The notes under the pieces were generated by a model. That model saw only the letters and a program-made list of their open reading frames with translations, was not told the origin of the DNA and did no database searches. Source: Phycisphaerae bacterium (GTDB taxonomy: Bacteria > Planctomycetota > Phycisphaerae > Sedimentisphaerales > SG8-4). From it: DNA of 9,778 nucleotides. The DNA lies in the NCBI GenBank assembly GCA_030603035.1, contig JAUVYQ010000098.1, forward strand, positions 1 to 9,778, written 5' to 3'. The first letter of the stretch is position 1. Each line of letters starts with the position of its first letter. Below, one piece after another: positions 2,607 to 5,404 of the stretch. A program made the position numbers and the translations under genes.

Positions 2607-3695
2607 ATGAACAGTAGAGTTCTAAAAAAACGCCTTAAGGCGATTCGCCGCCGGCTGAATGAAAAGAAGATAAATTGCCTTATAGTAACAAAGCCGGCCA
2701 ATGTAACGTATACGACGGGCTTTTTGGGAGATGATAGCTGGGCGGTAATTACTAAAGGCCGAGTTTATCTCTTAACCGACAGCAGATACACCGAACAGGC
2801 GCAAAAAGAATGTTCGTGCTGCAGGATAGTCCAGCGAGTCGATTCCCTGGCCCAGGCCGTAGCTAAACTGGTAAAAAAACTAAAATCCGTGTCCGCTTCT
2901 GGCGGAGTAACCGTTGAAAAATCCACCGCGCTTGCTGATTTTGAGGCGGTTAAGAAAAACGTTAAGGCCCGGCTTAAATCAGTTGCGAATATTATCGAAT
3001 CCGTTCGCAGCGGTAAGGACAGCAGCGAAATTGCTGCTATCAAAACCGCCGGTTCAATCGCAGCACAAGCCCTTAAACAAACCCGGCGATACATCAAGCC
3101 GGGCATAACCGAAAACGAATTGGCTGGTATGCTCAATTTTCAAATTCGCAAGCTGGGGGCGACAAATAGCTTTGATACAATCGTTGCTTTTGGCCCCAAT
3201 GCCTCGCGACCTCATCATCAGCCGGGTAGAAAGAAGCTCAAACAAAAAGATACCATCCTGATAGACTTCGGGGTCAAATACAAGGGCTATTGCAGCGATA
3301 TTACCAGGTGCTTTGCGGTTGGCAGGCCGACTACTTTTTATAAAAAGGTCTACGATGTCGTCGAGCAGGCGCAGGCCGCTGCGATAAAAATAGTGAAGGC
3401 CGGAGTTGAGATTAGCCGGGTCGATGCCGCTGCCAGGGAGGTGATTGGCAGCAGCGATTTGCCTGTTTACGGCCACGGGACGGGACACGGCCTGGGCCTG
3501 GAGATTCACGAATTGCCTTTCCTCAAAGCCGACGGCAAGGGAAAGCTCAAGGCAGGCCAAGTCATAACAATTGAGCCAGGCATATACATCCCAGGCAAAG
3601 TGGGCGTGCGAATAGAAGATGATATTCTCGTAACCCAGACCGGATGTAGGATATTAACCTGCAATTGTCCACATTCGCCTTTACTGTCTGGCTGA
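2607..3695 (+). CDS. M24 family Xaa-Pro peptidase (aminopeptidase P / prolidase type)
   Basis: Cytoplasmic metallopeptidase predicted to remove N-terminal residues before proline or split Xaa-Pro dipeptides. It has 362 aa, typical of the short bacterial type. Residues 1-133 form the creatinase-like N-terminal domain (LIVTKPANVTYTTGF). Residues 137-356 form the pita-bread catalytic domain. All five dinuclear metal ligands are visible: Asp220 (LIDFG), Asp231 (YCSDITR), His294 (HGTGHGLGLEIHE), Glu323 (TIEPG) and Glu337 (RIEDD). A histidine pair at 203-204 matches the usual catalytic His region. The last 15 residues (CRILTCNCPHSPLLSG) diverge from the normal family ending and are Cys-rich. The ribosome binding site is weak (GGCGAG at 2597-2602), so translation may depend on coupling to the preceding small gene. 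The thiC promoter begins 18 bp after the stop. Confidence 0.93.
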   Translation: MNSRVLKKRLKAIRRRLNEKKINCLIVTKPANVTYTTGFLGDDSWAVITKGRVYLLTDSRYTEQAQKECSCCRIVQRVDSLAQAVAKLVKKLKSVSASGGVTVEKSTALADFEAVKKNVKARLKSVANIIESVRSGKDSSEIAAIKTAGSIAAQALKQTRRYIKPGITENELAGMLNFQIRKLGATNSFDTIVAFGPNASRPHHQPGRKKLKQKDTILIDFGVKYKGYCSDITRCFAVGRPTTFYKKVYDVVEQAQAAAIKIVKAGVEISRVDAAAREVIGSSDLPVYGHGTGHGLGLEIHELPFLKADGKGKLKAGQVITIEPGIYIPGKVGVRIEDDILVTQTGCRILTCNCPHSPLLSG

Positions 3696-3712: not shown

Positions 3713-3740
3713 TTGCCTGCCAGAAGCAATAAGCTATAAT
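3713..3740 (+). promoter_or_regulatory. promoter for the TPP riboswitch-thiC transcript
   Basis: A perfect TATAAT at 3735-3740 lies 16 bp after TTGCCT (3713-3718, four of six to TTGACA). The predicted start, near 3747, falls immediately before the riboswitch aptamer, which is where a leader transcript should begin. Confidence 0.7.
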
Positions 3741-3749
3741 AAAAGCAGT

Positions 3750-3954
3750 TCGCCAGGGGTGGCCTACAACGCTGTGGGTCTGAGAAAAACCCCTTTGAAC
3801 CTGATCAGGACAATCGCCGAAAATGATTAGCCACGAAGACACAAAGTCACAAAGAAAATTTGAAAGTAAAAAAATAAATATAATTGAATTTTAGTATCTT
3901 TGTGTCTTGGTGGTGGAAATACGAGTCCGGCGGATATGCCTGCGTAGGGAAGCG
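3750..3954 (+). promoter_or_regulatory. TPP riboswitch (THI element), interrupted in loop L5
   Basis: This is the thiamin pyrophosphate aptamer controlling thiC. Conserved parts, in order: P2 5' strand AGGGGT (3755-3760); P3 with GGCCTACA/TGTGGGTC (3761-3768 with 3773-3780, loop ACGC); the pyrimidine-binding CTGAGA (3780-3785); P2 3' strand ACCCCT (3789-3794); the core GAACCTGATC (3797-3806); and P5 5' strand CAGG (3806-3809). The aptamer would normally continue straight on, but the 3' strand of P5, CCTG (3939-3942), and the conserved GCGTAGGGAAGCG (3942-3954) come only after about 121 bp of palindromic repeat. P1 is short (CGC/GCG). The pyrophosphate-binding junction between P4 and P5 is intact. 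L5, which normally docks on P3, is replaced by the insert. Whether it still binds TPP cannot be told from sequence. Confidence 0.9.
3815..3935 (+). repeat. MITE-like palindromic repeat inserted in TPP riboswitch L5
   Basis: Outer inverted ends ATCGCCGA (3813-3820) and TCCGGCGGAT (3926-3935) pair with one bulged G. Inside, CCACGAAGACACAAAG (3831-3846) matches the reverse complement of 3898-3913 at 15 of 16 positions, around an AT-rich loop of about 50 nt. The arms resemble a motif of GACACAAAG/CTTTGTGTC type that I recall as dispersed in many bacterial genomes. No ORF is present, so any mobility would be in trans. An AT dinucleotide flanks both sides (3813-3814 and 3936-3937) and could be a 2-bp target duplication. 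The exact ends are uncertain. Confidence 0.7.
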
Positions 3955-3961
3955 TTTTTGG

Positions 3962-3996
3962 ATTGATTATTGATTATTTTCTATTGACTATTTTTA
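3962..3996. repeat. third heptamer array, in the thiC leader
   Basis: The stretch divides into five 7-bp units starting with ATT: ATTGATT twice, ATTTTCT, ATTGACT, ATTTTTA. It shares the 7-bp period of the arrays at 125-232 but has another consensus. Confidence 0.6.
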
Positions 3997-4005
3997 GCGT
4001 TTGTC

Positions 4006-4041
4006 AGCCATCAATTCCTGTAAATCACTCCCTGGCTTTTT
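4006..4041 (+). terminator. weak candidate terminator in the thiC leader
   Basis: AGCCA (4006-4010) can pair with TGGCT (4033-4037), followed by TTTT to 4041. The stem is only 5 bp and the loop 22 nt, so this is poor as a terminator. It is listed because it lies where a TPP-dependent expression platform would be expected. Confidence 0.2.
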
Positions 4042-4054
4042 GATTTCTGGTTTA

Positions 4055-4081
4055 TTCTCTGTGCCCTTTGTGGCGAAAAAA
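4055..4081. repeat. solo half-copy of the palindromic repeat next to thiC start
   Basis: TTCTCTGTGCCCTTTGTGGCG followed by a run of six As resembles the right arm of the element inside the riboswitch (ATCTTTGTGTCTTGGTGG then GAAA). It ends 3 bp before the AAGGAAA ribosome binding site of thiC, so repeat-derived sequence borders the translation start. Confidence 0.5.
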
Positions 4082-4096
4082 TAAAAGGAAAGAACA

Positions 4097-5404
4097 ATGG
4101 CAACACAATTACAAATCGCACGAGCCGGAACAATTACCGACCAGGTCAAATTTGTCGCCAAGACCGAAAACCTTGATGATGGGCTTGTTCGCGATGAGCT
4201 TGCCGCTGGGCGACTGATAATACCTGCGAACAAACTGCGTCTGAAAACTAATCTGGCGCCGACCGGTATAGGCCGGGTGCTTACCACAAAGGTAAATGCG
4301 AATATCGGCACAAGCAGCGTTCGCTCTTCGGTAGAGGCTGAAATCGAAAAAATGCAAACCGCTCTGTTTGCTGGCACTGATGCGGTTATGGATTTAAGTA
4401 CCGGCGACAACCTTGACGAGACCCGCGAGAGATTGCTGGCCCGGTGCCCCGTACCCTTCGGAACAGTGCCAATCTATCAGGTCATAGAAGGCAGAAATGT
4501 CGAGGACATAGACAGCAAAATAATCCTCGAGGTTATCGAAAAACAGGCCAGGCAAGGTGTCGATTTCTTTACCATTCACGCCGGCGTATTAAAAGAGCAT
4601 CTGCCCCTGCTCGAGAAGCGAGTTGCAGGTATCGTCAGCCGGGGCGGAGCACTACTGGCCAAATGGATGCTATATCACAACAAGCAAAATCCTCTGTATG
4701 AAATATTCGACGATTTGTGTGACATATTGGCCGAGTATGATATCTGCTTTTCTCTCGGTGACGGCCTGCGTCCGGGTGCAATCGCAGACGCCACCGACCA
4801 GGCACAAATCGCAGAATTAAGGACCCTCGGAGAGCTTACACAAAGAGCGCAGGAAAAGGGCTGCCAGGTTATGGTCGAAGGCCCCGGCCACGTGCCGTTT
4901 GACCAGATACAATACAATATGGAAATCCAGCAGCAAATTTGCCGCGGTGCTCCGTTCTACGTCCTCGGCCCGCTGGTAACCGATATCGCAGCTGGGTACG
5001 ACCATATAACGTCGGCAATCGGCGGGACCGCTGCCGCCTTTTACGGCGCATCGTTTTTGTGCTATGTAACGCCGAGAGAGCATCTCGGCCTACCGAACGC
5101 CGATGATGTCCGGGCCGGCGTAATTGCAGCAAAAATCGCAGCCCACGCCGCTGACATTGCTCGTGGCTTAAAAGGTGCTACTGAGCAGGATAAAAGACTG
5201 AGCATTGCACGGACCAATCTGGACTGGAAAACGCATCTGGCCGAATCGCTCGACCCCCAAACAGCCGAGAGAATGCACCGCGAGGTTTGCAAGGAAATTG
5301 GTGCAAAGGAATTACCCTCCGCCGATTACTGCTCAATGTGCGGCTGGCAGTGGTGCAGCGTCAGGATAAACAAAGAAATCCGAAAACATATAGCGGATAG
5401 ATAA
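4097..5404 (+). CDS. thiC: phosphomethylpyrimidine synthase ThiC
   Basis: Radical-SAM enzyme (EC 4.1.99.17) converting aminoimidazole ribonucleotide to 4-amino-5-hydroxymethyl-2-methylpyrimidine phosphate, the pyrimidine half of thiamin, in the cytoplasm. The 435-aa length fits the short bacterial ThiC form without the extra N-terminal domain. Family signatures are clear: NANIGTSS near residue 68, MDLSTGDNL near 97, PVPFGTVPIYQ, FSLGDGLRPG, VEGPGHVP and LGPLVTDIAAGYDHI. The C-terminal CSMCGWQWC supplies Cys412, Cys415 and Cys420 in the atypical CX2CX4C order that binds the [4Fe-4S] cluster in ThiC. WQW replaces the more common PKF, a conservative oddity. AAGGAAA (4085-4091) precedes the ATG by 5 bp. 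The gene stands alone with its own promoter and TPP riboswitch, so feedback repression by TPP is expected, subject to the riboswitch interruption. Confidence 0.97.
   Translation: MATQLQIARAGTITDQVKFVAKTENLDDGLVRDELAAGRLIIPANKLRLKTNLAPTGIGRVLTTKVNANIGTSSVRSSVEAEIEKMQTALFAGTDAVMDLSTGDNLDETRERLLARCPVPFGTVPIYQVIEGRNVEDIDSKIILEVIEKQARQGVDFFTIHAGVLKEHLPLLEKRVAGIVSRGGALLAKWMLYHNKQNPLYEIFDDLCDILAEYDICFSLGDGLRPGAIADATDQAQIAELRTLGELTQRAQEKGCQVMVEGPGHVPFDQIQYNMEIQQQICRGAPFYVLGPLVTDIAAGYDHITSAIGGTAAAFYGASFLCYVTPREHLGLPNADDVRAGVIAAKIAAHAADIARGLKGATEQDKRLSIARTNLDWKTHLAESLDPQTAERMHREVCKEIGAKELPSADYCSMCGWQWCSVRINKEIRKHIADR

Follow-up and report, generated by a model that had tools for sequence, protein, structure and literature searches.

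The thiC leader described here raises the question of how a TPP aptamer came to have the two strands of its P5 helix 129 nt apart, what the intervening sequence is, and whether the aptamer would still form around it. The leader lies in a window (the whole stretch of DNA analysed, 9,778 nt from a Phycisphaerae bacterium) in which an intact thiC (4097..5404, +; 435 aa; PF01964, E 1.2e-179) is preceded by the gene of an M24 metallopeptidase (2607..3695, +), located 5' of the riboswitch and used as synteny marker. A promoter-like stretch, TTGCCT-16-TATAAT (3713..3740, +; 10 of 12 consensus matches), abuts the 5' side of the aptamer; one such stretch was found against a shuffle average of 1.2, and relatives have similar sequence at this position. 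Six related loci (L002, L003, L012, L006, L007, L030) carry between the M24 gene and the TPP-thiC unit an extra gene that is absent from the window, and this gene has a promoter-like stretch similar to the one in the thiC leader. Elsewhere in the window, an 88-nt repeat containing AAACAAACCCAAT(T) units is present at 297-597 in three degenerate copies, with similar stretches in L012, L085 and L087, and a short open reading frame at 2262-2570 is probably a gene fragment, its match to pectate lyase being confined to the C terminus (profile positions 236-291 of 292).

The 5' half of the aptamer (3748..3809, +) contains the 5' strand of P1, P2, P3 (GGCCTAC/GTGGGTC), CTGAGA, CCTTTGAACCTGAT and the 5' strands of P4 and P5, while the 3' half (3939..3954, +) contains the 3' strand of P5, GCG, the 3' strand of P4 (TAGG) and a short 3' strand of P1 (GCG). 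The core blocks CTGAGA, CCTTTGAACCTGA and GCGTAGG are present and in order 5' of thiC, as an earlier note on this DNA had claimed, and RF00059 recovers the 5' half; the P5 strands, which that note had placed about 130 apart, are indeed found at its coordinates (CAGG at 3806-3809, CCTG at 3939-3942). Judged by the gathering score of RF00059 (54.3 bits), nevertheless, the intact window falls short, reaching 24.6 bits (E 0.23) with the 3' half wrongly placed, and a second intact locus treated below (L131) likewise remains below gathering at 27.5 bits. The gathering score was passed by nine of the ten relative loci (L001-L009, not L010; 54.4-59.8 bits) and by five of eight loci among L010-L017 (56.7-73.5 bits); at 54-60 bits, the nine relatives lie at its edge. 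With a sequence profile built from 57 aptamers, window and L131 left out, the intact window scored 60.8 bits, a detached 3' piece adding 17.4 bits of its own, and rose to 87.7 bits once 104 nt were removed, while L131 rose from 65.6 (+20.7) to 95.9 bits; L001, itself a training sequence, scored 94.6 bits. Since the profile score nears the level of the relatives after removal, the insert is most likely the cause of the low covariance-model score. The expectation of a large gain with RF00059 stood in part, in that the intact window scored low with a misplaced 3' half, the gain itself being seen with the sequence profile. RF00059 matched nothing else in the window, such as the separate complete aptamer nearby that the earlier note had considered.

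To delimit the insert, L5 of insert-free relatives is the relevant comparison. A search of 161 genomes of the order to which genome G003 belongs for the aptamer 5' block gave 62 matches in 60 genomes, to which the thiC loci of relatives were added. Among 66 distinct sites, the distance between the start of CAGG and the 3' block is 10-54 nt in 61, and in 45 of these it is 23-29 nt. The remaining sites are the window and L131, both with 133 nt, L109, without a 3' half in place, and L143 and L144, whose 3' block was missed by the motif yet whose L5 is short and ordinary; L006 and L146, missed by the whole motif, also have an ordinary L5. The handful of bases previously taken as usual for L5 is therefore not what this order has. 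In the 57 aptamers other than window and L131, the L5 segment measures 6 nt at 3 sites and 15-50 nt at 54, and in these 54 a further hairpin, P5a, extends L5. All 54 longer segments fold with at least three pairs, but so do 2031 of 2700 shuffles, and since this criterion is weak the claim is carried by the energies, which lie below the segment's own shuffle mean in 53 of 54, and by the pair counts, the four P5a pairs being formed in 13, 13, 14 and 14 of 15 distinct 24-nt segments. From these sequence comparisons, L5 carries an additional P5a hairpin at nearly all sites examined. A class-wide search for the 5' block, with matches in 36 of 397 genomes, added three sites (L222-L224), all of which have an L5 the size of a hairpin and lack a long insert.

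Two further observations on L5 and its surroundings concern other loci. In L109 (G027) the thiC leader contains the 5' half of the aptamer with no proper 3' half before thiC, a natural truncated riboswitch. L129 (G055) and L113 (G034), from two lineages, have an L5 that measures 49-50 nt and contains a CCTGYTTTC..GGAAAGCAGG palindrome. This palindromic P5a was considered as a second captured repeat and rejected, as it showed no sign of dispersal there: in G034 it is confined to the TPP site, as is its exact match in G055, three two-mismatch matches in G055 being another sequence and 16 matches in G003 being that other or a similar sequence.

Against this background, the earlier bounds of the insert, 3815-3937, had to be revised. 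The flanks AATCGCC and GGCGGATATG form the P5a hairpin that is present in insert-free relatives, and the insert is therefore restricted to 3823..3926 (+), 104 nt with arms at 3831-3853 and 3891-3913. It is preceded by a segment (3814..3822, +) that comprises the ancestral P5a 5' arm and the beginning of its loop, identified against the empty sites of L001, L108 and L012, and followed by the P5a 3' arm and the P5a/P5 junction (3927..3938, +), likewise recognised by comparison with relatives, so that the sequence across the P5a apical loop reads CGCCGAAA, then 3823-3926, then CCGGCGG. The P5a arms of the window are those of L001 and L108, unlike those of L102. With a hairpin of variable length and sequence being the rule in L5 of this order, the loop offers a permissive site for insertion.

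The insert is self-complementary, as had been proposed, and far beyond chance: its arms are 83% complementary, and it folds at -27.1 kcal/mol compared with a shuffle mean of -12.7 (sd 2.3; z -6.2), with none of 200 shuffles as low. Its suggested origin from a repeat family was likewise supported, the octamer core being dispersed in related genomes. The octamer pattern, of which one repeat copy can yield several matches, was found 83, 55 and 44 times in G003, G004 and G001, compared with 2, 5 and 1 times for the reversed pattern; it was matched in 10 of 11 genomes, in some at counts near the control (5 vs 4 in G009, 8 vs 6 in G010). The usual layout of a copy is TTAGCCACGAAG..(A+T-rich)..CTTNGTGGCAAAA, and several copies are positioned directly 5' of an ATG. 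The family thus has the many dispersed copies with inverted arms by which MITEs and interspersed palindromic repeats are defined, and by its form the insert is a MITE-like dispersed inverted repeat. In L168, L169, L181 and L137, copies of the octamer repeat hold another palindrome (e.g., GGATTCCCGCTTCCGCGGGAATGACA) nested in their own loop. Site alignments revealed no clear target-site duplication at the insertion site. An association of the family with Y1 transposases or GxxExxY genes was not borne out, octamers occurring near 1 of 18 and 0 of 7 such loci, and no mobilising gene was identified among them; the literature on GxxExxY returned only papers on other subjects. A plasmid search gave no match, a phylum-wide search for the insert gave 0 of 392 genomes at E 1e-14 (in a set with no positive control, no more than two candidates being scored for each genome listed), and a literature search with the repeat core gave none. 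A further member of the family survives as a remnant, its 3' arm, at 4057..4074 (+), 5' of the thiC start as read from the sequence; at this position L001 and L003 have a full copy between riboswitch and thiC.

The insert was found once more. Searching the 161 genomes of the order gave matches at E 1e-5 in 27, and among the scored matches (about five candidates per genome, so that a closer donor copy could be missed) only one, on contig C123 of G029 (L131/L156/L158), spans the whole query, with the same insert at the same base and 97% identity. The next best scored match by E-value has 83% identity over 77 nt, and shorter ones reach 97% over 32 nt. These two are the only known carriers. Between CAGGA and GCCTGCGTAGG they are identical at 123 of 127 nt, and over the insert they differ at 4 of 104 positions. 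This second occurrence makes an assembly error in the window very unlikely; the junctions recur in a separate assembly with other flanks and about 3% difference in the insert, so that a chimeric assembly is scarcely credible and the concern voiced earlier that the insert might be such an error was not sustained. G029 also holds another TPP contig without the insert (C71, L110), and this bin may be mixed.

The two leaders are built differently. Leader type was assigned from the sequence of P1 and P3, from gene order and from the expression platform. The window leader directly follows the M24 gene and, from the aptamer 3' end into thiC, matches L102 at 190 of 258 aligned positions; both have the platform GAAGCG.TTTTGGATTGATTAT .. 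TCAATTCC.GTAAATCAC.CCCTGGCTTTTT, in the window at 3955..4041 (+). This motif occurs within three mismatches in 39 of the 161 genomes, exactly only in G018 (L102), and behind an aptamer, among the loci fetched, only in L102 and its duplicate L236 besides the window; the window-type leader is therefore known from one further genome only. Left-hand leader identity (0.84 to L102, 0.86 to L131) fails to separate the types. The view of the window leader as a deletion fusion, an L001-type leader that lost its terminator arm, was rejected, as its type matches L102. In the L131 leader, a gene that we take to be VCBS-like lies upstream, P1 has five pairs, and a terminator hairpin AAATCGCTTCC..GGAGCGATTTTTTT is predicted at -11.4 kcal/mol.

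Nor do the genes that follow the two leaders group together. The closest thiC relatives of the window are L001-L003, from Phycisphaerae MAGs with 91-93% protein identity, and the thiC tree places the window with them (support 0.998) and the G029 copy (L156) with L108/L109 (1.000); window and G029 thiC share 86% identity over their whole length and 62% at four-fold sites. The comparison of related thiC leaders that had been proposed earlier did reveal the empty site, in L001-L003 closest to the window and in L108 beside the G029 copy. If a single old insertion had descended vertically and been kept by selection, several precise losses (L001, L002, L003, L108) would be required on this tree, the leaders that retain it would have to have diverged in type, and 4 differences in 104 nt would have to be reconciled with 38% divergence at thiC four-fold sites (binomial 2e-16) or with the overall thiC divergence of 14% (6e-4). 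The region can change slowly, however: the left leaders of L131 and L003 are 97.8% identical over 93 nt although their thiC genes agree at only 65% of four-fold sites, and L001 and L108 have the very same 24-nt L5 segment. From the former comparison it follows that leaders change slowly or recombine, which weakens arguments from divergence. On balance we regard vertical descent as improbable.

Independent, site-directed insertion of near-identical copies into one hairpin loop would explain the same base being hit in two leader types, and the palindromes nested in L168, L169, L181 and L137 indicate that loop nesting happens. What this explanation lacks is a donor-like copy among the scored matches in the 161 genomes, and a mobilising gene at the Y1-transposase and GxxExxY loci; moreover, the unusual edges GAAAATGA.. 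and ..AATACGAGTC are exactly common to both carriers. It appears unlikely to us, if slightly less so than vertical descent. The sequences fit best with one insertion that moved between leaders: a dispersed 104-nt inverted repeat would have been taken up by the P5a apical loop of a thiC TPP riboswitch, and the insert with its P5a flanks would then have passed laterally between two differently built leaders. The likeliest route would be short-patch homologous recombination, with the near-invariant blocks CCTTTGAACCTGA.CAGGAC and TATGCCTGCGTAGG as possible arms. That the repeat in the P5a loop is a self-contained side arm, and that it moved laterally between differently built thiC leaders, is the account we favour, with reasonable but by no means full confidence.

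Whether the aptamer would form around such an arm was addressed with predicted folds, all computed without ligand. In the unconstrained minimum-energy fold of the aptamer, both carriers form P2, P3, P4, P5, P5a and the repeat hairpin, in line with the earlier proposal that the insert could act as an extension of P5; P1 forms in L131, not in the window or L001. The series P5, P5a and repeat hairpin (16 pairs, one mismatch) would let the aptamer's own helices form. For the aptamer alone, the probability of P5 with and without insert is 0.91 and 0.99 in the window and 0.997 and 0.997 in L131. Shuffled inserts lower it to means of 0.61 and 0.91, and the real value is reached by 34 of 100 shuffles in the window and by 0 of 100 in L131, wherefore insulation by the insert hairpin is predicted clearly only in L131. 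The probability of P4 is 0.59-0.73 in the window versus 0.93-0.99 in L131 and L001. The helices P2, P3, P4 and P5 expected of an RF00059 member are accordingly predicted to pair in the aptamer alone, with P4 weaker in the window, and the insert apparently leaves the predicted fold of the aptamer unbroken.

In the full-length leaders the predictions diverge. For L131, the aptamer, P1 and terminator are all kept. For the window, P5 is predicted at 0.79-0.85, P4 at 0.56 and P2 at only 0.32, the last because GCCAGGG of P1/P2 (3752-3758) pairs at 0.63 with CCCTGGC downstream (4030-4036, then TTTTT to 4041). The minimum-energy fold of L102 has the same competing helix, with 8 pairs (GCCAGGG(G) with CCCTGGC). 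The downstream strand may serve a different platform as anti-aptamer or terminator, or the helix may point to an impaired switch; a terminator that forms without TPP is the wrong way round for thiC repression. No local intrinsic terminator was found in the window leader (best -3.4 kcal/mol). Such a terminator at -6 kcal/mol or better is present at 44 of 58 sites with enough sequence and scored in neither the window nor L102, in a count that misses some long-loop hairpins (L011, L015 and L023 score near zero). By a crude count of consecutive pairs, P1 has 3 in the window and 5 in L131 and L001, 49 of 59 sites having at least 4.

These traits bear on the idea, raised in the earlier note, of a riboswitch caught decaying. 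For L131 it is not supported, P1 and terminator being intact around the insert. For the window the picture is mixed: a P1 of three pairs, the absence of a local terminator, a P2 outcompeted in the full leader and an aptamer burdened with a repeat would all suit decay, but L102 shares the platform, is also terminator-less by score and forms the same competing helix, P3 is fully paired despite a sequence differing from that of L102, thiC is intact, and L131 carries the insert with all else in place. Decay of the window riboswitch is a doubtful reading, although it deserves more weight than either independent insertion or vertical descent. The window aptamer would probably still sense TPP, and the G029 switch is most likely still an ordinary OFF switch of the terminator type, given that its P1, antiterminator and terminator are intact in the sequence.

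The repeat might also have been co-opted as a working part of the switch, for instance if its 5' arm paired with the remnant at 4057-4074, a duplex predicted at -19.0 kcal/mol. The hairpin between the two arms of the insert is more stable (-26.6 kcal/mol) and would form first during transcription. We hold co-option to be the least plausible of the biological explanations.

Small repeats at tolerated positions are known in genes and structured RNAs, as for the Rickettsia palindromic elements and the repeats of cyanobacterial RNase P RNA; these concern other hosts and other RNAs, none of them ligand-sensing. In its core blocks and in helices P2-P5, in order before thiC, the window resembles the RF00059 TPP riboswitch (THI element), from which it and L131 differ in that L5 is replaced by a P5a hairpin with a 104-nt repeat. 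Long insertions without conservation are described as acceptable to many riboswitches at particular sites, mostly in the form of stable stem-loops that leave the core untouched; the TPP riboswitch has an optional P3a, and its P5 ends in a UNR loop that contains a U-turn (PMC2258182, Barrick and Breaker 2007). Compared with the variable insertions treated there, the present one differs in its location in L5/P5a, in being a dispersed repeat and in occurring in two leader types (PMC2258182). Another parallel is a pneumococcal BOX element between two T-box riboswitches, in a leader that still appears functional by RNA-seq; there too a dispersed repeat joins a riboswitch-bearing 5' leader, but between aptamers, whereas the insert of the window lies inside an aptamer loop (PMC3049150). 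A review of MITEs cites the BOX case and regards riboswitch formation by MITEs as conceivable (PMC10969869). Among the matches listed by our literature search, no title dealt with a repeat inside L5 of a TPP aptamer.

The observation is real, an artefact being very unlikely, and what is unusual about it is that two types of leader have one and the same insert, placed at an identical base. It provides a natural aptamer with a dispersed repeat at a permissive loop, and the P5a extension common in this order keeps Rfam scores close to the threshold. A contact between L5 and P3 is a feature of those TPP aptamers whose structure is known, and the aptamers of the window and L131 offer a direct test of whether this contact is dispensable or rebuilt. 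The comparison of leaders and genes suggests that riboswitch parts can pass between lineages. A broader version, in which riboswitch sub-domains are exchanged horizontally, with invariant blocks of the TPP aptamer as homology arms and a repeat-loaded P5 domain spreading between non-orthologous thiC leaders, is put forward more tentatively, as we would place it somewhat below even chances. If true, a selfish palindrome would travel inside a riboswitch, and the locus would represent a case where riboswitch parts may be exchanged laterally.
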